Shown: one piece after another, positions 3,001 to 50,121 of the stretch
Numbering within the stretch: the stretch's first letter is position 1
Layout: each line of letters starts with the position of its first letter
From: an uncultured Bacteroidota bacterium
GTDB taxonomy: Bacteria; Bacteroidota; Bacteroidia; NS11-12g; UBA9320
Assembly (NCBI GenBank): GCA_937124965.1
Contig: CAKZLB010000010.1
Span: 62,001-126,000 of the forward strand
Direction of reading: 5' to 3'
Length of the DNA: 64,000 nucleotides
Notes under the pieces: model-generated
What the model was told of the DNA's origin: nothing
Database searches by the model: none
The model's input: only the letters and a program-made list of their open reading frames with translations
Program-made: the position numbers and the translations under genes

Positions 3001-4916
3001 TGGACATTAGCCGCAGGCAAAAATTGCTCACCAAAACCATCCCCATAAATTCTTAGGTAATAAGCTCCAAGTACGTTGGTTGTTTGCAGGAGCGCAGGGG
3101 CTGTTCCGTTATGCTCAATTGTAGTAATTACGTTATACGATTTATTGTTATGCTCAAGAGTGGTAAGGCCTGAGTAGCCCATTTGTCCACCGATTTCGCT
3201 GTAACTTCTATTCCAAGCATTTGCTTCAAGAAGTACGTCAACTTTCAGGTTCTTTATTTCAGTCTCCGTCAGCGAAGTTGAATAGATAGCGGGACTATAC
3301 TCCATACTTCTGGCCAGAAGCATAACTGGTTCAACTTTTACGATATAACCCTTCTCATTAAATACGGGCGTTATTTCTTGAACAATTGGATTGAAGAACC
3401 CAGTTGGGTGACTAACTTCCAACTCATACGTTCCTTCTTCTTTTGAAATCGAAAATGCGTAGTTTCCTTGGTCGTCAGTTTCCACCATTTCAACCAAGTT
3501 TCTTTCACCTTCATTTTTGAGAAATAGTTTTATATCAGCTCCAGGCAAAATTTTTGCCGCTGATAAATCTGTCGGGGCTATAAGTTCTTCTTTATTGTTT
3601 AATGAAGCATCTGTAGATACAAGATTTACTTGCGACGAAGGTTGTCCACCTGCGAAAGCCCAACGAACCATACCAGAAACTCCAATTGCTTTTGATGCTA
3701 AAATATCGTTTAAAGCAGGGTTAACAGAGTCGCCTTTCTCAACTTCAGTATTTGAGGAAGCTTTTGCTGGAATATTTAAACTGACTTGTTCTCCGACCAT
3801 TTCAGACCCGTCAGAACAGATGTATGTAATCCAAAATACATATTCCGTATTGGGCTGAAGGCCTCCAATACTTGTCTGCAGACCATTGACAGTTGAATAC
3901 TTTGGAATTGCATTTGGAAGATTCTTTGGTCGATATTTGATTTGATACGTTTCAACGTCTTTGCACTTTTTCCAAGATAAGTTAACAATGCTTCGATTGA
4001 GAGAAGTGTTCTCAAATGCAGGAGTAGGACAATCTGTAGTGTAGTAGAAACTGTAAATGTCGCTGTATCCGTTGTTCCTAAATTCATCGAAATCTTGATT
4101 TAAGTCGACCGGTACTAGTCGTACACGCCAACCATAACGTTTTCCTGGTATAAGAAGTGGTTGACCTGGACCATAAATAAGCGTTGTCGCAGTTTGGGTT
4201 GTTTTGTACAGTACACGAGATGATACAAATGCAGCATTAGGATCTACTTTTTCATCCAATAGCTCAACTAATTCAAATTGGTATTGGGTATTCGTTGCGC
4301 TATTTGGACTGTTTTGATGACGTGGTGTCCAGTTAAAAACAAGAAACTGACTTGCTTTTTCAGCAACTCTTTCATTATTCGCAGGAACATTTAGCAATGG
4401 AGGTTCAGTTAAACTCAACCATGCCATGGCGCATTGTCCTGGTTGACTTACCACTCGATTAGTTGGAACTTCAACCACATCAAAGCAGAAAGAATATAGC
4501 CCTTCGGGTAACTGACCTTGACTAAGATATTGCTGAGGCGAAAGGCCTTGAAATTTTAAATTATTAGGGTTCAAGTATTGCTCTAAGTCATTCAATGTTA
4601 GTCTTGTAGGAACACCAGGAGACAGTTCTATTGGGATGTAAATCTTTGACTCGTCTGTTGTCAATAAGACTGTATTACTCGAAATAGTAACACGCAATCG
4701 TACACGCAAGGTGTTTTGCTGTAAATCCCTGTTGGTAAGCGTAACAATCAATTTTGGAGTGACACCTGTGTAATAATCTGTCAACGATAAACTTGGTGGA
4801 CTAATAATTTGTGGCTGCACCTGAACAGGATATTGTGCTTGAACAGAAAGTCCTGTTACAAACAACATCACTAAAGTGACAACAATCCCTTTTATTCGAC
4901 TAATGTTGGTCGGCAT
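1..4916 (-). CDS. Giant secreted FN3/TANFOR-like protein, C-terminus cut by left edge
   Basis: An open minus-strand frame of about 1638 codons runs from ATG at 4916 off the left edge without a stop. Residues 1-28 form a signal peptide ending SVQAQ. The N-terminal part (YPVQVQPQIISPPSLSL, LTNRDLQQNTLRVRLR, NPNNLKFQG, NWTPRHQNSPN) resembles a large conserved family of Bacteroidota secreted proteins often named TANFOR-domain or fibronectin type III proteins. A clear FN3-like domain lies near residues 295-385. It is followed by several carboxypeptidase-regulatory-like beta-sandwich repeats, for example around 455-510 and 750-800, and then a long region with no named domain. The family role is unproven; a surface or gliding-related structural role is inference. 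It lies 30 bp downstream of the next minus-strand gene and may be cotranscribed with it. The C-terminus, where any sorting signal would sit, is outside the window. Confidence 0.85.
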   Translation of the reverse strand, partial: MPTNISRIKGIVVTLVMLFVTGLSVQAQYPVQVQPQIISPPSLSLTDYYTGVTPKLIVTLTNRDLQQNTLRVRLRVTISSNTVLLTTDESKIYIPIELSPGVPTRLTLNDLEQYLNPNNLKFQGLSPQQYLSQGQLPEGLYSFCFDVVEVPTNRVVSQPGQCAMAWLSLTEPPLLNVPANNERVAEKASQFLVFNWTPRHQNSPNSATNTQYQFELVELLDEKVDPNAAFVSSRVLYKTTQTATTLIYGPGQPLLIPGKRYGWRVRLVPVDLNQDFDEFRNNGYSDIYSFYYTTDCPTPAFENTSLNRSIVNLSWKKCKDVETYQIKYRPKNLPNAIPKYSTVNGLQTSIGGLQPNTEYVFWITYICSDGSEMVGEQVSLNIPAKASSNTEVEKGDSVNPALNDILASKAIGVSGMVRWAFAGGQPSSQVNLVSTDASLNNKEELIAPTDLSAAKILPGADIKLFLKNEGERNLVEMVETDDQGNYAFSISKEEGTYELEVSHPTGFFNPIVQEITPVFNEKGYIVKVEPVMLLARSMEYSPAIYSTSLTETEIKNLKVDVLLEANAWNRSYSEIGGQMGYSGLTTLEHNNKSYNVITTIEHNGTAPALLQTTNVLGAYYLRIYGDGFGEQFLPAANVQEAVRLQTSLTFKQTPHSISGIASLSKKPIEQARIEVKVPISGIIGKATSGLARGEYQVYTTMTDETGAYHVDLPRLKEGVTVGVMLMNYSLSPAPFTGEVTVANKQALEYDFNLNSETFTYVGLLKDADGFPVENAQVQVDGSRSPVRTTRKGFFLIQGDYSMSSVIKITADGYKEYKSPASNFKLQNLNLGESNAASKWGKAVSATTSIAAYSKANSSPVTAGLLMQGKDQESLSVIYTQIRTTSDEQIAGLIDLNEVVLTPVPRAVDITIKVKGESEILDAEVELRRNGVAVARLQSEKGGSVRYIGTPGRYVIVARRLEDGSMFATTETNFDLLNNAREDQSVILEVEKGILANFKVISLKKEKALKGAKINVEGLDVNGESDKNGICDALIPMGSTTSVKVSFELEKYNSETKMLSMEELKAGNIEFKLEEIFSAPVTNLSGFAVETTSQVVDDPEKPNVVKISGKLTVPENDVFTPMDGEEELEFKNVLVELQDDDGNAFATQDIGFETATMQMKVYGGIPVEVEEVHLTNLEDEEDYEIGVIKGTRTKTVFGAASYARAHVQKILNGFPYDAFLLDSALDIDKMDKDDQFEPFEVDDPEGAPLSSLISIAVPEEVTINSLTDTKIFKLHFDVEETYSEDTIGIPLFGPLRLSIDRNKVIIDADAMKMEGFFQIPKGVSQMADSNGMMTMDVFNIQNNLYAIDIGFDISETKPFEMRLQKINTKITNIGIEGLGTTNCGVTLGGLVWLTQKKTTTPGQPRQRTPEGIDTAGMKDALKIISLSFVNKAEGVTLGGEFQLPEKGFSVKGLTFKTEGDAAIAFEFNFSEKTFELSASGILEYKAATQPNAPPDTAAKSKIFPIEIQLFSLKTADWSLFLAARPNKEIDFGVVVVKVDALIVNIGYEANFDQMAAMLQNGEVTEIPANLGGPDDLVEESKTDWAIGIRGGVGFPIKGLKVDVKASVLIGVVDDEFAFSISELDLGLENPAFTLEARVA

Positions 4917-4946
4917 AATGTTTAAAATTTCAGTTGTAAATAGTTT

Positions 4947-7900
4947 TTAGTTGATAACGATTCGTTGAATCAAGTTTCCTTGAGGTGTTTCCAGAATCAT
5001 AATATATACCCCAACTTGTAGGCTAAGTGTATATGGTATTTCATATTCTTTGGCACCTTTTTCTGTTCGGTCATCCACGGTAATACTCGTGTTGGCATCT
5101 AATATTCGAATTCGAACATCGCTTTCAGCACTTAAAATTATCCGTGTAGTAAATTGACCGTCAGAAGGATTTGGATAACTCACAAATTCTCGAATAAACG
5201 GTGAGCGTCCTTCCACTTTTGGAAGGTCAGACCCTTTTAACACATAAATAGATTTTGACGAAAAGTTTGAGCAATTATCCTTAAATGTTTTAAGTCCAAT
5301 GTCGTATGATCCAGAATCAGCAAATTGAATAAGTAGCTCACTAGAAGTGTCTTTTAGAACAGTAATCCCCGGAACGGAAGGTAAAACCCAACGACTACTG
5401 TCTGGGGTTTCTTTCGAGATGTTTACTATACTAACGTCCGTATTGCTGATGAGTTGTGTGGCAATGACAAACTCAGCATCGATTTCGGCGGGGACAATAT
5501 TGGTGTTTACGGTGATAACAGAATCGCAACCTGCATCGTTCGGTATTGTTTGAGTAAAGATACCGGTAGCATTGTAGTTTTGTCCATTTACTTCAACTGA
5601 ACCACACCCTGAAACGGATATTGAAGAAGCGCTTGACGTACTAATTGTTAATTGAAGTTGTGCAACACTATCGCAACCTACGGAGTTTAGTGTCAAATAT
5701 TCATACGTTCCAGATTGATTATATGTAGAGCCATTCCAACTAAAACTATCACAATTAGCTACTGTGGTTGTCGACGTAGTTCTGTCTCGTTGGGCTTTTA
5801 TTATTTTAGAGCTAACACTTTGACCAAAGCTATTGTATGATCGTACTCTGAAAAAGATGTTATCAGTTGTAGCAACGTATTCGCTTGTATCTAATCCCAT
5901 GTCTTTGTTGGTATAATCACCAACAGTTTTGGTAAACAATGAATCGGTTGCAACGTCAATTACAAAACCCGTTACCTCAGGGTCTTTATTCCATCGAAGG
6001 GTAAAACCAGAACAGCCAGCATCACTCGCACCATCTAAAGCGGTTGGTTTAGATGGAACCCCGGCAGGTGTAAGACCACATACAGCAAATATTCCAGTTC
6101 TTGAACTAGAGTTCACTTTCTTAAACTTCAGTTTAGTGACAACTTTGGTGGCGTTTACATCAAGCTCGCTGTCGTAAAGCCGAGGATTATCAACACTAAC
6201 CGTATCATAGTTGTCTGTTGTTCTCTGAACTCGTCCAAACCCCTGGATCGCTGGGTTCGATCCGCCGTACCAATCAGCAACTGTAAACGTTTTTGCCTGA
6301 GTTGTTCCATCACTATAAGTAACGGTCACATTGAAAGACGATGCTCCTTCAGCACTGGCAGAGAGAATTATGAGCTTATCATAGACGTCAGCTAAATCTA
6401 GAGTCAATTCTCCACTATCAGATCCAACAAGAAGTAAAACATTGTCTTTGGTGTAATCCATTAGTTGATAATTCACACCTGGATTAGATGCGCTTAAAAT
6501 TTTGCCGTCATTGGGAATTCCAAACCGACCCTCTGCAGCGCCATAACGAAATTCTTTTGTAAACAGCACATAATCTGAAAAAGTACCATTAGGAAAGTCA
6601 AAAGTATTAGTGGTAACTTGTGAAACATCTTTATTTGTCCCTTCAGCCACCAAGTCTGCGTTAAATCCAGATAATGAAATTGCAACAAAATCGGAAGCAT
6701 CAATTCCTAGCTTAACTCTTATTACATTAGAGTTGACGCTCTGACCTGCACTGTTATAGGCTCGAATTCGATAGTACAGTGTTGGAGCAGAAGTGCTGAC
6801 ATTCAGAGTAGTTACATTTCCAACATCCTTATTAATATACCCTTTTACAAGATTTTCTTGAGTGAATTCCCCATCAGTTGAAACATCGATAATATATCCC
6901 GTTGCTTTATCAACAGAATTCCAGTTTGCTGTAAAACCTGTTCCGTTAACCAAATTGGTTGCAGCCGTTGCAACGGGCCAGTCTGGCACTCCTGAAGGGG
7001 TCAGTCCACAAACGGCAAAAATACATGAGCGTGAGGATGAGTTTGTTTTTTTAAACAAAAGCTTGGTGACAACCTTAGCTGGGTTTAATTGAAGGATGTT
7101 ATCATATAAGCGTGGATTTTGCGGATCGTCATCAAATCCTCCATTTACTCGAACACGTCCAAAACCTTTTATAGCCGCATTATCTCCACCATACCAATCA
7201 GGTACAGCAAAAGTAACAACCTCTGTAGAGTTGTCACTATAAAATGCGGTCACCGCAAATGAAGAGGAACCTTCAGCACTTGCCGATAAAATTGCCATTT
7301 TCTGAAAAACGCCAGGTTCCAAAAGAACCAGTGTGTCGCTTTCACTGCCCGTCAGTATTAGAACATTATTTGAATCGTATGGCTGCAACTGATAGATAAC
7401 ACCTTTGTTTGAAATACTTTCAATGACCCCATTGTCAGGTAAACCAAACTGGCCACCTGATGCGCCATATTTAAAAAACTTGGAATACATCACATTTCGA
7501 CCTGATGACAGAGGATTGTCCATGGATGTTGATGTTACTTTTGCTGGATCGGTACCAGATTCTGCAATTACGTCATTATTAAATCCAGTCAACTTGAGTG
7601 GAACAAAGCCTTCGCCCAACGCTTCTTCAAATACACCAATACTGGGTGGAGCGAATCGGTAGGCTCCTCTAATGTCGTATTTGGGAGCGTAACTAGCGGA
7701 CCCAGCTTCTGCTAAATCAGATTCCGCAGCTAACGTATAACCATCGTCTGACGTGCCCCAGATTCCGTCAGTACCAACTGGATCGACAGGGTTTTTAAAT
7801 ATATCTGTGGTTGACTTAGCGCTTAGATCAACTTTTGTGTTTGGCCAATCAGTTGGTCGAAAGTCAACCGCATTGTTTGTGGAATTACTATTTAAAGTTC

Positions 7901-45602: not shown

Positions 45603-46598
<996 letters not shown>

Positions 46599-46741: not shown

Positions 46742-46813
46742 GGCCCCTTCGTCTATCGGTTAGGACGCCAGGTTTTCATCCTGGAAAGAGGGGTTCGATT
46801 CCCCTAGGGGCTA
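46742..46813 (+). tRNA. tRNA-Glu (anticodon UUC)
   Basis: A full cloverleaf can be drawn. The acceptor stem is GGCCCCT / AGGGGCT, the D-stem GTC/GAC, and the anticodon stem CCAGG/CCTGG with loop TTTTCAT (anticodon TTC at 46775-46777). The T-arm is AGGGG-TTCGATT-CCCCT and the discriminator is A. CCA is not encoded. A terminator follows 17 bp downstream. Its 3' end is duplicated at 50051-50075. Confidence 0.96.
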
Positions 46814-46826
46814 CAAACAAAGTAGC
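46801..46826 (+). repeat. Left copy of the tRNA-Glu 3'-end direct repeat
   Basis: This 26-base stretch spans the tRNA T-stem, acceptor 3' side and 13 bases downstream. It matches 50051-50075 at 23 of 26 positions (two substitutions, one deletion). It ends in the inverted repeat GCTAC-aaacaaa-GTAGC. Confidence 0.6.
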
Positions 46827-46830
46827 ACTG

Positions 46831-46862
46831 ATCCCGCTCCTAAAAAGAGCGGGATTTTTTTT
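46831..46862 (+). terminator. Terminator of tRNA-Glu
   Basis: ATCCCGCTC / GAGCGGGAT perfect 9-bp stem with a 7-base loop and a T8 tail. Confidence 0.9.
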
Positions 46863-47162
46863 GTTTAAGATTTTGGGGTTATTCCTGACATGGTTAATTC
46901 TTTTTACTTACTGGATACGCATCTTATTAACTTTTAAATAGCTCCTATGGCTTCCTTGTTGCCATGAATCATTTCAGAACGTTAGTCCTACTGATGTCTA
47001 TTATGGAAAAGCAAAACAGACGTTTAAGCAAATAAGTATAACTAAAACCTTAAATGCAAGAAAAATGCAGTATCAAAAATTAAACTTATTTTAGCAATAA
47101 ACTCTATCTTAACACTTTAACATAAACGTAAAAATTTCACTGGCGACGAACAATTAGAAATT
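46863..47162. other. AT-rich spacer after tRNA-Glu
   Basis: About 300 bp with no gene-like frame. It carries the presumed promoter and leader of the VCBS-repeat protein gene, but I cannot point to a consensus -7 box. Confidence 0.4.
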
Positions 47163-49721
47163 ATGAAAATAAAAAAAATCATATCATTGTACTGTGTTCT
47201 TCAACTGATACCTAAAACAACCTTTCCTAAGAATTTGAGAAATAAAAATTATCTCAAGTACATGATGTGCTTTATTTTGTTCTTTTCTTCTGTCTCGGTA
47301 GGCATATCTCAAGATCCTCTTTTTGCTAAAAACCCTCGCTTGCTCACCCTTAGAGCAAATGGAACCTATGAAATTTATTTAGCCGATTTGGATCATGACG
47401 GTGATCAGGACATTATCACTTCTATGGAATACTACTACAGAGATCAACTAGCTTGGTTTGAAAACAGTGGTTTGGGGGTCTATGGCCAGGAAAACTTAAT
47501 CTCAGCGGTTGAACCTTATAAAGATATTCAGAGAATGACAGTTGCTGACTTGGATCTAGATGGATTCATGGATGTAATCGCTGTTGATAAGGACAAGGGC
47601 CACCTCATCTGGCATCGCAATATGAAAGATAGCTTTAGCGAGGCAATCATTATTTCAACATGGGCTGATTTAATGGTTTCAATTGAAACAGGGGATATTG
47701 ATGGAGATGGTGATATAGACATTCTTTTTGGTCAGATGAATGGAGATAAAGTAGGTTGGTTCAAAAATGAAGGTTCTGGTGTTTTTATCAGACGCACCAT
47801 ATCTATTTCGATTAATATGATTAAAGAGGTACGATTGTCTGATATTGATGGTGATGGCGATTTGGATGTTATTTCTGCCTCCTATACCGATAATAAAATA
47901 GCCTTCTACAAGAACAATGGAACTGGGTCTTTCGAAAAGCAGAAAATAATTAGTACAGATGCGTTTCGTGCAATTAGACTTAATATAGCTGATTTGGATG
48001 GAGATGGTAGACCCGATGTGATTTCAAGTGCGCAGGGGGATGGTCAAATTGCCTGGTATAAAAATATAAATGGGGATAGTTTTAGTTCTAAGATGATTGT
48101 TGATTCACTCTACATGGGAGCTAAAGACATTGAAATGGTTGATATTGATCTTGATGGTGATGTAGATATACTTGCAGCTCATCAGCCCACAAATCAAGTA
48201 TTGCTTTACAAAAACGATAGCAAAGGCAATTTTTCTTCTGCTATCGTACTGGCTACAAGGCATAAAGTGGAACTCTTGTATCCCGCTGATATGGATGAAG
48301 ATGGCGATATTGATATAATTGTTGGATCAGATCTGGACGATGAATTTGTTTGGTTAGAAAACTTACAAAATGATCAAAATGTAGCAGGTGAAATTTTCTA
48401 TGATATCAATGGGAGTGGCAAAAGAGATTATTTTGAACCGGCTATTCTGTATGGAAGGGCGACAATAACACCAAAAAACGGGACCTATTCGATGAATCAA
48501 ATTGGAAAGTATAGTTTTCAAGTTGATACAGGTCGTTACGTAGTCAGCTACGATTCCCTGTCTTTAAAGAATTGGAAGTTTTCGGACGACTCATCATCTT
48601 ATACTATACAAGTTGATAAGGGAGTCAAACACAATAGGTTGGATTTTGGTTTTCGCCCTAAATATTTGAAATCACAATTTAAGCTCGAGTCACATGCAGC
48701 ATCACCAATATGTGGAAAGAGTTCTTCTATGACATTTAGTATTTACAACAGCGGTACTACATACTCAAATGGGGTGTTATGGATAACACTTGATCCTCAA
48801 ATTGCTGAATATTACTTTCACCTTGAACCAGATACGACAAGCGGGAAGCGTTTTGGTTGGAAGTATCAATACTTGTACCCCAGCCATAGGTTCGAGGTGT
48901 CGTTAGACATCAAAACGCCCTCTTATGATGGCTTGAAATTGAAGAATATTATCGAATCGGACTATACCGATAATCTAGGTCAAAAGACACTACATGAAGA
49001 ACTCAGTTATGTAGTTAACTGCCAAACGAACTCCTATTATAAAAGTCTTGAAGAAACAGATGGTGAGAATCAAGGTTATGCTTTTAGAGAAGACTTCCTT
49101 AACTATTCACTCGAATTTCAAAATACTGGAACAGATACGGTAAGAAGTGTTACCCTTATTGACACCCTCGATCCATCTCTTAATCCGCAGTCCTTTCACA
49201 TAGTCGGGAGCAGCCATCTCCGTAATTTAAAAGCGGAGCAGGATGGTTCTGTTGTACGCTTTTTCTTAGATTCAATCCGCTTGATTGATAGTGCGAGTAA
49301 TTTTGACCAAAGTAGAGCTTATATACGATATCGGGTTAAACCAAAATGGTCAATCAAAGACAGCACTATAATAGACAACACAGCACATGTAAAATTCGAC
49401 ATTAGTTCATCCTATAAAACTACCAATACTGTTTCGGTTGTGGTTGTGCACAATCCAGATCTGAGCGTAGAAGATGAAGAGCTACAGTTTTTAATTTGGC
49501 CGAATCCAGCGGATGAGTTTATTTATATCGATGCAGACAATTGGTCTGATTCCAAATTAATAATTTACAATCAACTTGGGCAGATTCAGTATGAGGCCGT
49601 GTTAGGTAATTCATCTACTCAATTGTATAGTCACAACTGGGAAGCAGGGGTTTATTTTGGTTTACTCTCCCATCCCGATGGTAGGTCTTCATGGAAAAAG
49701 TTGCTTATTAGTCATCATTAA
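47163..49721 (+). CDS. VCBS/FG-GAP-like repeat protein with DUF7619-like domain, T9SS-sorted
   Basis: 852 residues from ATG 47163. An ATG at 47262 is an alternative, because MMCFILFFSSVSVGISQ looks like the signal core. Residues about 65-415 hold roughly seven VCBS-like repeats with calcium-loop motifs (DLDHDGDQDII, DIDGDGDIDILFG, DLDGDGRPDVISS, DMDEDGDIDIIVG) and a recurrent W-F/Y-x-N strand. A short SdrD-like segment (about 420-500) and a DUF7619-like domain (about 620-770, ETDGENQGYAF, NYSLEFQNTGTDTVRSVTLIDTLDPSL) follow. The tail (LIWPNPADEFIYI ... WEAGVYFGLLSH) is a T9SS sorting domain. It lies inside the segment bounded by the tRNA-Glu 3'-end repeats. Confidence 0.9.
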   Translation: MKIKKIISLYCVLQLIPKTTFPKNLRNKNYLKYMMCFILFFSSVSVGISQDPLFAKNPRLLTLRANGTYEIYLADLDHDGDQDIITSMEYYYRDQLAWFENSGLGVYGQENLISAVEPYKDIQRMTVADLDLDGFMDVIAVDKDKGHLIWHRNMKDSFSEAIIISTWADLMVSIETGDIDGDGDIDILFGQMNGDKVGWFKNEGSGVFIRRTISISINMIKEVRLSDIDGDGDLDVISASYTDNKIAFYKNNGTGSFEKQKIISTDAFRAIRLNIADLDGDGRPDVISSAQGDGQIAWYKNINGDSFSSKMIVDSLYMGAKDIEMVDIDLDGDVDILAAHQPTNQVLLYKNDSKGNFSSAIVLATRHKVELLYPADMDEDGDIDIIVGSDLDDEFVWLENLQNDQNVAGEIFYDINGSGKRDYFEPAILYGRATITPKNGTYSMNQIGKYSFQVDTGRYVVSYDSLSLKNWKFSDDSSSYTIQVDKGVKHNRLDFGFRPKYLKSQFKLESHAASPICGKSSSMTFSIYNSGTTYSNGVLWITLDPQIAEYYFHLEPDTTSGKRFGWKYQYLYPSHRFEVSLDIKTPSYDGLKLKNIIESDYTDNLGQKTLHEELSYVVNCQTNSYYKSLEETDGENQGYAFREDFLNYSLEFQNTGTDTVRSVTLIDTLDPSLNPQSFHIVGSSHLRNLKAEQDGSVVRFFLDSIRLIDSASNFDQSRAYIRYRVKPKWSIKDSTIIDNTAHVKFDISSSYKTTNTVSVVVVHNPDLSVEDEELQFLIWPNPADEFIYIDADNWSDSKLIIYNQLGQIQYEAVLGNSSTQLYSHNWEAGVYFGLLSHPDGRSSWKKLLISHH

Positions 49722-49870
49722 TGTTTTGCCTCTTTAAACCTTATTACCAACTCTTCATAACCTTCGGTTACAGAAGGAATGAATATTCGATCATTAGCAT
49801 CTAGACTTTCAGCAGGGCTAACGGGCCAATGATTGTGGTTTGCGCTTCTACATCTATTTGGAGAAGGAAT
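49718..49870 (-). pseudogene. Orphan C-terminal coding fragment
   Basis: A minus-strand frame of 50 codons ends at TAA 49718-49720 and is preceded in frame by TAG at 49871-49873, with no ATG. The translation has natural protein composition (NHNHWPVSPAESLDANDRIF, then IPSVTEGYEELVIRFKEAKH), unlike random AT-rich sequence. I read it as the surviving C-terminus of a decayed gene. The family is not recognised. It overlaps the stop of the VCBS gene by 3 bases and lies just inside the right tRNA-end repeat. Confidence 0.5.
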
Positions 49871-50050
49871 CTAAGACCTGACAGTTTATTATCAAATAGT
49901 TAAAAGGTTTTAATAACCATCTCAAGATATAAAAATTAGTAGTTGATTATTAAAATCACCATCAGAAATAATCCCAACATTAATCTGATGAAGTCTCAAT
50001 TCAAACTTCGTGATTAATACTTAACCAAAAGAAAAATGTCCGACATAAGG

Positions 50051-50075
50051 CTCCTAAGGGCTACAAACAAGTAGC
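50051..50075 (+). repeat. Right copy of the tRNA-Glu 3'-end direct repeat
   Basis: Matches 46801-46826 at 23 of 26 positions, including the GGGCTACAAACAA core and the GCTAC ... GTAGC inverted repeat. No tRNA 5' half precedes it, so it is a 3'-end fragment. This is the classical form of an attachment-site duplication left by integration at a tRNA gene. Confidence 0.6.
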
Positions 50076-50077
50076 TT

Positions 50078-50115
50078 AAACCCTTGTAAGTCAAGAACTT
50101 GCAAGGGTTTTTATT
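50078..50115 (+). terminator. Terminator following the tRNA-end copy
   Basis: AAACCCTTG / CAAGGGTTT perfect 9-bp stem, with AAGT/ACTT pairing extending inward, followed by a T-rich tract. Confidence 0.8.
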
Positions 50116-50121
50116 TTAGTT

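Follow-up and report, generated by a model that had tools for sequence, protein, structure and literature searches.

A displaced tRNA-Glu 3' end in a Bacteroidota genome: a possible integrase-less tRNA insertion, compared with tRNA-linked GIY-YIG units

In tRNA islands, a regenerated tRNA gene and a displaced tRNA fragment mark the ends, and the lengths of Islander-type islands peak at 13.6 and 39.9 kbp (PMC4383910, in the part of the article available). We analysed a window of 64,000 nucleotides (G000:C10:62001-126000; G, C and L denote genomes, contigs and loci throughout) from an uncultured Bacteroidota bacterium, whose genome, G000, comprises 4.09 Mb in 79 contigs. In this window, the 3' end of a tRNA-Glu gene recurs 3.2 kb downstream, and the DNA between the copies holds a gene for a protein with a type IX secretion system (T9SS) sorting domain. 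Like Islander-type islands, the locus has a whole tRNA and a displaced same-strand fragment at its ends; unlike them, it measures 3.2 kb and lacks the tyrosine integrase gene that is required inside (same part of PMC4383910). A second system for comparison is a complete tyrosine-integrase element at the tRNA-Val gene of the same genome (C42:35103 to ~42630; L185 3103 to ~10630), in which 46 nt of the tRNA end recur, displaced, 7.4 kb downstream, with a terminator, and which has an integrase at C42:41224-41655. Like the window locus, it has a terminator-bearing, displaced tRNA 3' end in the same orientation, but it differs in its length of 7.4 kb, its tyrosine integrase and its exact 46-nt repeat, which ends at the tRNA end. 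We tentatively read the window locus as a decayed or non-autonomous tRNA-targeted integrative element, at a probability of about 0.4.

The displaced 3' end of tRNA-Glu

The tRNA gene, the two copies of its end and the hairpin behind the second copy lie as follows:

46742-46814, plus strand: complete tRNA-Glu(UUC), called by ARAGORN, the window's sole tRNA
46803-46826, plus strand: left repeat copy, tRNA 3' end and flank, CCTAGGGGCTACAAACAAAGTAGC
50053-50075, plus strand: right repeat copy, the displaced tRNA-Glu 3' end (~nt 62-73) and flank, CCTAAGGGCTACAAACAAGTAGC
50076-50118, plus strand: terminator hairpin TTAAACCCTTGTAAGTCAAGAACTTGCAAGGGTTTTTATTTT directly behind the right copy, with similar hairpins in relatives

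The repeat consists of the last 12 bases of tRNA-Glu and the next 11-12 nt, and its copies stand on the same strand, 3.2 kb apart. The initial annotation, made from the sequence of the window, had placed the copies at 46801-46826 and 50051-50075 with 23 of 26 matches; the repeat proved real, and local alignment gave 22 matches, one substitution and one one-base gap. Its alignment score of 19.0 exceeded the maximum of 16.5 among 1000 shuffles of the local stretch, and its ungapped score of 15 exceeded the maximum of 12 among 60 Markov resamplings of 10 kb. In the genome-wide search that the annotation had proposed, an 18-nt core, CCTANGGGCTACAAACAA, whose N was set after both copies had been seen, occurred with 0 mismatches at just these two places and with 3 mismatches at all 7 others, while a reversed control pattern occurred at 5 places with ≤3 mismatches. 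As had also been stated, the second copy lacks a tRNA 5' half: the local score upstream of the right copy was 8.0 against a shuffled mean of 7.1 (p 0.26). We found no second tRNA-Glu in the genome. The GCTAC/GTAGC inverted repeat reported just past the tRNA is present in both window copies, in G002 and at one locus of G004. It is missing from G008 and G012, and G009 retains CTAC/GTAG only; its absence from the first two led us to reject it as a recombinase site.

We then considered the hairpin directly behind the right copy, and read nine similar hairpins in their contexts. Four directly follow a complete tRNA (tRNA-Asp in G000, G001 and G008; tRNA-Lys in G019), and two stand behind displaced ends, of tRNA-Asp in G002 and of tRNA-Met in G003. 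The best match outside the own genome, among 38 other genomes, is in G008 (83% over 60 nt, E 1.4e-11), where such a hairpin follows tRNA-Glu immediately. The annotation had suggested looking for a relative in which tRNA-Glu is followed directly by sequence like that from 50076 onward; G008 is such a case, in another genus and with a recurrent hairpin. Its value as proof of an empty site is weakened by the recurrence of the hairpin, including three of nine places without a tRNA, and by the distance between genera. Because the hairpin recurs, G008 supports a displaced native end only in kind. Presumably, the hairpin at 50076-50118 is the native terminator of tRNA-Glu; the right copy and its hairpin would then be the old native end of the gene, and the newcomer would extend from the left repeat to 50052.

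The remaining features of the locus are these:

46830-46863, plus strand: terminator-like hairpin after the complete tRNA-Glu, GATCCCGCTC..GAGCGGGATTTTTTTT, read from the sequence
47163-49721, plus strand: single intact open reading frame (ORF) of 852 aa with FG-GAP_3 repeats, DUF7619 and Por_Secre_tail, the T9SS C-terminal sorting domain (Pfam)
49722-50052, no strand assigned: decayed or non-coding stretch, family not recognisable in Pfam, hidden Markov model (HMM) and tblastn searches
45603-46586, minus strand: glyceraldehyde-3-phosphate dehydrogenase (GAPDH) gene, head to head with tRNA-Glu (Pfam Gp_dh_N and Gp_dh_C), the anchor of the locus in relatives

The hairpin at 46830-46863 is unlike the one behind the right copy and presumably came along with the insert. 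The T9SS repeat-protein gene that the annotation had seen between the copies is intact and is presumed to be cargo. It has no close homologue in the 38 other genomes; at E 1e-10, 14 of them hold matches of 20-35% identity over partial length, and the best match in its own genome is 40% over 235 aa. The same 3.2-kb content throughout the family, which the annotation had named as a refuting result, was not seen. For the putative decayed coding fragment (~49722-50050, minus strand), the best Pfam match was GH99 at E 0.097, which did not pass the cut-off.

The annotation had also seen no integrase here. A six-frame search with a model of the eight integrases of this genome revealed no tyrosine integrase or remnant between the copies, and all eight PF00589 matches of the genome lie outside the window contig. 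There was likewise no GIY-YIG signal in HMM and tblastn searches of the interval (best tblastn E 0.01, over the tRNA stretch), the PF01541 matches of the genome being on contigs other than the window's. The interval holds no serine recombinase; the genome has its sole PF00239 match elsewhere, on contig C13.

Comparison with relatives and the case for an integrative element

GAPDH and tRNA-Glu are paired at 20 of 29 relative loci (L002-L030), including 17 of 17 from the same family. Past the tRNA, the DNA varies among the relatives that could be read (G004, G008, G009, G012 and G015). Pfam recognised a serine recombinase (G004), an HTH_17 protein and a Fic protein (G015) there, and transposase-like and rnf-like genes were seen by eye. 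In six genomes (G002, G005, G010, G019, G028 and G029), the contig stops within ~300 bp of the tRNA-Glu 3' end. Separately, G004:C1 was found to have three GAPDH/tRNA-Glu loci, at 228k, 270k and 481k (L042, L044 and L043, respectively), with differing downstream DNA; these look like a duplication or a mixed-strain assembly.

We also surveyed displaced 3' ends at other tRNAs. The survey took in 32 tRNAs of G000, up to ~9 kb downstream where the contig allowed (some, such as tRNA-Arg(acg), L198, lie near a contig end), and the tRNAs in 18 loci of G002, which has 29 tRNAs in its genome. At a score of ≥14, a displaced 3' end was present for 5 of 56 tRNAs (Glu, Val, Ala with two pieces, Arg and Asp). 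Controls gave 1, 2 and 0 of 56, and were exempt from the filter of ≥10 nt inside the tRNA that was applied to real matches. A further displaced end was seen by eye at tRNA-Met of G003, and those at Glu, Ala, Arg and Met start near nt 59-62. The tRNA-Ala of G002 offers a parallel to the window: a small cargo, no recombinase seen by eye, and two displaced ends, from nt 59 and 62. A tRNA-Ala piece in the own genome (nt 28-43) is not a 3' end and was taken as chance.

If the locus is an integrative element, a ~3.2-kb mobile piece would have integrated at the 3' end of tRNA-Glu, supplying the last dozen tRNA bases and a terminator anew, so that the tRNA would have stayed whole. The native tRNA end with its native terminator would have been pushed to 50053-50118. 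The result would be a recombinase-free element with one gene for a secreted T9SS repeat protein, its integrase having been lost or the element having moved in trans. We infer the insertion event, its direction and a tyrosine recombinase as the agent from several findings that support this reading. The repeat is far above chance and unique in the genome; the hairpin family behind the right copy often follows tRNA genes (4/9) or displaced ends (2/9); the DNA past tRNA-Glu differs among relatives, six further genomes have a contig end close behind it, and the cargo ORF has no close homologue; and the same genome has a complete tRNA-Val element, with a parallel tRNA-Ala case in G002.

Other observations weigh against an integrative element. 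Of the repeat, only 12 nt belong to the tRNA, with one mismatch among them, and another 11-12 nt lie past it; the duplication at tRNA-Val does not go beyond the tRNA. Three of the nine similar hairpins have no adjacent tRNA, namely those at L102 (G000) and at L106 and L110 (G015); the one at L106 is 1.5 kb downstream of tRNA-Glu. Neither a tyrosine integrase nor its remnant lies between the copies, the G+C content shows no step at the insert (35-38% inside against 35-44% around), and none of the eight integrases of the genome has a relative at the tRNA-Glu loci examined in other genomes. GIY-YIG genes and a serine recombinase are also found at tRNA-Glu in relatives, and the empty-site comparison is confined to other species or genera. 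The anatomy fits the tRNA-island rule, and the locus appears to work like a decayed or trans-mobilised tRNA island. However, since the required integrase was sought and is missing, we do not file it as a proven member of these islands. Of the degraded or non-autonomous element proposed in the annotation, the displaced tRNA end gained support from the hairpin and the G008 match, and an integrase as its agent did not.

GIY-YIG units that adjoin tRNA genes

Not every displaced tRNA end in these genomes is accompanied by an integrase. In G002, the filled tRNA-Asp site (L104 6286-6360, minus strand) holds a small GIY-YIG ORF and not an integrase, and the corresponding site is empty in G001 (L105 6305-6379, minus strand); both are species of the genus to which the window belongs. 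A broken piece of the tRNA-Asp (nt 55-75) starts 366 bp past the tRNA in G002, with the native terminator displaced. We therefore describe the occurrence of such ORFs. Among 46 small GIY-YIG ORFs, picked by hand from the PF01541 matches of 39 genomes including our own (at least one, G025:C4:258492, was left out), 24 had a tRNA within 1 kb. An HMM of 17 tRNA-linked GIY-YIGs matched 127 of 198 genomes across the phylum, and among the matches listed one genome had at least 8 tandem units at ~365-bp spacing. A same-strand tRNA lay within 600 bp at 27 of the 30 loci returned by the HMM (L237-L266), and no opposite-strand tRNA was seen. Since the model was made from tRNA-linked proteins and these loci scored highest with it, the share is not that of GIY-YIGs in general. 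The 27 include four (L237, L243, L260 and L261) in which match edge and tRNA start overlap by 11-22 nt, leaving 23 without them. Further GIY-YIG loci are L145-L184, L046 and L047.

A GTDB scan with three Met-type proteins returned 186 relatives, of which the best 80 (L267-L346) were analysed. A tRNA lay within 600 bp of 65 of these best 80 of 186, directly upstream within 250 bp in 60 cases, and 58 of the 65 were called tRNA-Met; opposite-strand tRNAs numbered two in all. On the far side of the nuclease, 46 of the 80 had a broken tRNA piece. Fifteen had no tRNA within 600 bp, four of them ≤400 bp from a contig end. Carriers include Pedobacter, Mucilaginibacter and Niastella, as well as metagenome-assembled genome records labelled KSB1, Cloacimonadota, Ignavibacteria and Balneolaceae. 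Thus, in Bacteroidota and neighbouring phyla, the small GIY-YIG nucleases of this clade usually adjoin a tRNA gene at the loci picked by similarity; often a whole tRNA stands on one side and a broken copy with a hairpin on the other, and some units lie in tandem.

The order in the Met type is whole tRNA, terminator, GIY-YIG ORF, broken tRNA copy and flank. The broken copy mostly consists of ..TCATA (or ..TCTTA), a hairpin such as TCCGCC-n-GGCGGA, and the tRNA from nt 47-49 to its end. The displaced 3' piece starts at nt 46-50 in 35 of 39 loci, and a hairpin abuts it, ending within 3 nt, in 35/39 Met-type loci as compared to 10.3% of 780 random positions. Among 53 hairpins, the sixth pair was C-G in 39, T-A in 10, and G-C, A-T, C-T and C-A in one each; the finder's requirement of 5/6 pairs biases the paired share and, to a lesser extent, the change of pair type. 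The first broken copy lies 308-398 bp past the tRNA in 34 of 38 Met-type loci, and in some (L301, L302, L306, L316 and L346) the stop codon of the ORF falls within the D-arm of the broken copy. At 25 more loci with an upstream tRNA, no such piece was present in the DNA available, in several because the contig ends. In a mirror type, seen at tRNA-Arg and tRNA-Ala and, in the case of G009, at tRNA-Glu, the nuclease and a broken 5' part lie upstream of the whole tRNA. At L345 (~4886-4964), a selenocysteine tRNA called by ARAGORN is a tRNA-Met interrupted by a TCCGCC..GGCGGA hairpin; broken hairpin-bearing copies may be misannotated elsewhere.

The GIY-YIG proteins have eight invariant columns in 17 sequences, including Y5, G18, R26, H30 and E62, and the protein of G008 matches Pfam GIY-YIG at E 2.9e-17. 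In a tree of 94 proteins, built from few columns and with many weak forks, 12 small GIY-YIGs without a nearby tRNA grouped together with a support of 92; of the remaining 82, 20 also had no tRNA within 300 bp. The tRNA labels were clustered on the tree, with 37 changes against a shuffled mean of 54.2 (0/200 as low), and the Asp and Ala labels alone were not.

These units are apparently undescribed tRNA-splitting mobile units. Judged by title or the start of the abstract, none of the papers listed in searches of the open-licence literature dealt with tRNA-linked GIY-YIG units of bacterial chromosomes, subscription papers and preprints being outside the scope of these searches. A survey of GIY-YIG proteins from 2006 mentions no such units in the part of it available (PMC1564403). 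Two described systems come nearest as models, by analogy: the intronless homing of the T4 Seg enzymes and the replacement of gene ends in fungal mitochondria. Going by the title of a paper cited in PMC2988022, the free-standing GIY-YIG homing endonuclease SegB of phage T4 is reportedly needed for the T4 tRNA region to be inherited preferentially. Like the GIY-YIG units, and not like the window locus, its gene lies among tRNA genes, and the enzyme targets a tRNA intergenic region (PMC2988022, available part). The Seg enzymes belong to a phage, and that part of the text contains no mention of a broken hairpin-bearing tRNA copy, tandem units or bacterial chromosomes (PMC2988022). Mobile endonuclease ORFs of fungal mitochondrial DNA replace the 3' end of atp6, atp9, cox2 or nad3; they resemble the GIY-YIG units in that a substitute gene end arrives with the insert and the original end, displaced, comes to lie beyond the nuclease ORF. 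They differ from the units in that they enter mitochondrial protein genes, and a junction hairpin is not mentioned in the available part of the article (PMC3630166).

On the model of these systems, the nuclease would cut an uninvaded tRNA gene, and repair would copy the unit in. The carried part of the tRNA would keep one gene whole, and the broken, hairpin-marked copy would be the displaced native part. Against the simplest homing model stands its lack of an explanation for the sparing of the restored tRNA gene, or for the role of the hairpin.

The window locus might be the footprint of such a unit that lost its nuclease, the T9SS gene having arrived with it or afterwards. We regard this as unlikely, although several observations speak in its favour. 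GIY-YIG genes adjoin tRNA-Glu in two sister genera, G008 and G009, the latter with a displaced tRNA piece; the tRNA-Asp site is filled in G002 and empty in G001 within the same genus; and the own genome has a decayed unit with broken initiator tRNA-Met pieces (C74:115675). In addition, 14 of 38 Met-type loci have the same 20 nt behind the broken tRNA as behind the whole one, so that a repeat reaching past the tRNA end is normal for these units. However, the interval gave no GIY-YIG signal, and no small GIY-YIG ORF lies between the whole and the broken tRNA. The copies are 3.2 kb apart, as against the 308-398 bp of most Met-type loci. The right copy also lacks an abutting hairpin: the closest is a weak one, ATGTC-C-GACAT, which has 5-nt arms and stops 5 nt before the copy. 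The sole Glu-type unit with a piece, in G009, displaces the 5' part (nt 1-22) and not the 3' end, and no tRNA piece was found in G008. We do not assign the window locus to the GIY-YIG units. It is more doubtful still that the window end and the other ends without a visible recombinase (tRNA-Ala and tRNA-Arg of G002, tRNA-Met of G003) are all old footprints of undescribed tRNA-entering GIY-YIG units spread through the phylum, which here brought or attracted cargo.

The decayed unit of the own genome lies at L156 (G000:C74:115675-115884). Behind it, as read by eye, stand initiator tRNA-Met pieces with a hairpin splitting them; ARAGORN called no tRNA in the 5.5 kb around L156.

Remaining explanations and implications

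The main alternative in the initial annotation was a decayed second tRNA-Glu, which would have arisen by tandem or dispersed duplication with unrelated DNA between the copies. The match does take in flank past the tRNA, and G004 has three complete tRNA-Glu loci, though these are apparently the duplicated or mixed GAPDH loci of one assembly. The 5' half is untraceable upstream of the right copy (p 0.26), and full-length matches do not exceed one in any compared relative but G004. At the right repeat, no complete second tRNA-Glu was seen. The alternative thus gained no support, an old duplication being the form in which it may still hold, and we consider it quite unlikely.

A serine-recombinase element carrying the tRNA-Glu 3' end appears very unlikely. 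In its favour, a 531-aa serine recombinase with Resolvase and Recombinase domains abuts tRNA-Glu in G004 (L044 10081-11676, minus strand). Where the two meet there is a hairpin, AAAGCGGAATA... (AAAGCGGAATATG...), that is found again behind tRNA-Met in G002 and, next to a gene that by eye is ruvB-like, behind an orphan tRNA-Glu end in G001. A start resembling that of the hairpin follows tRNA-Glu in G005 and G010 (loci concerned: L044, L040, L049, L050 and L216). This recurrent hairpin may be no more than a shared terminator. It is absent from the flanks of the window repeat, and there is no serine recombinase gene beside the window tRNA-Glu or in the interval. Chance similarity, to which the shortness of the repeat and the displaced ends in the less filtered controls (1, 2 and 0 of 56, against 5/56) might point, is highly improbable given the genome-wide uniqueness of the repeat, the shuffles, and the tRNA-associated hairpin family directly behind the right copy.

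An integrative element is the explanation that we tentatively retain for the window locus, and taken alone the locus makes a modest case for a small, integrase-less tRNA insertion with a T9SS secreted protein. Such insertions are one way in which T9SS secreted proteins may spread between Bacteroidota. Displaced tRNA ends are a standard sign of integrase-made islands, and the tiny GIY-YIG nucleases described here show the same sign. Because the GIY-YIG units carry similar broken tRNA copies, a displaced tRNA end is no proof of an integrase, and the premise of the initial annotation, that such ends point to integrative elements, is weaker in this phylum. The units thus bear on island-finding methods and on tRNA annotation. 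If they are homing elements of tRNA genes, bacterial chromosomes would have in them a common kind of selfish element, clear in its anatomy, selective by tRNA isotype and represented by a filled/empty pair, and their cleavage would be testable directly with one purified protein of ~85 aa.

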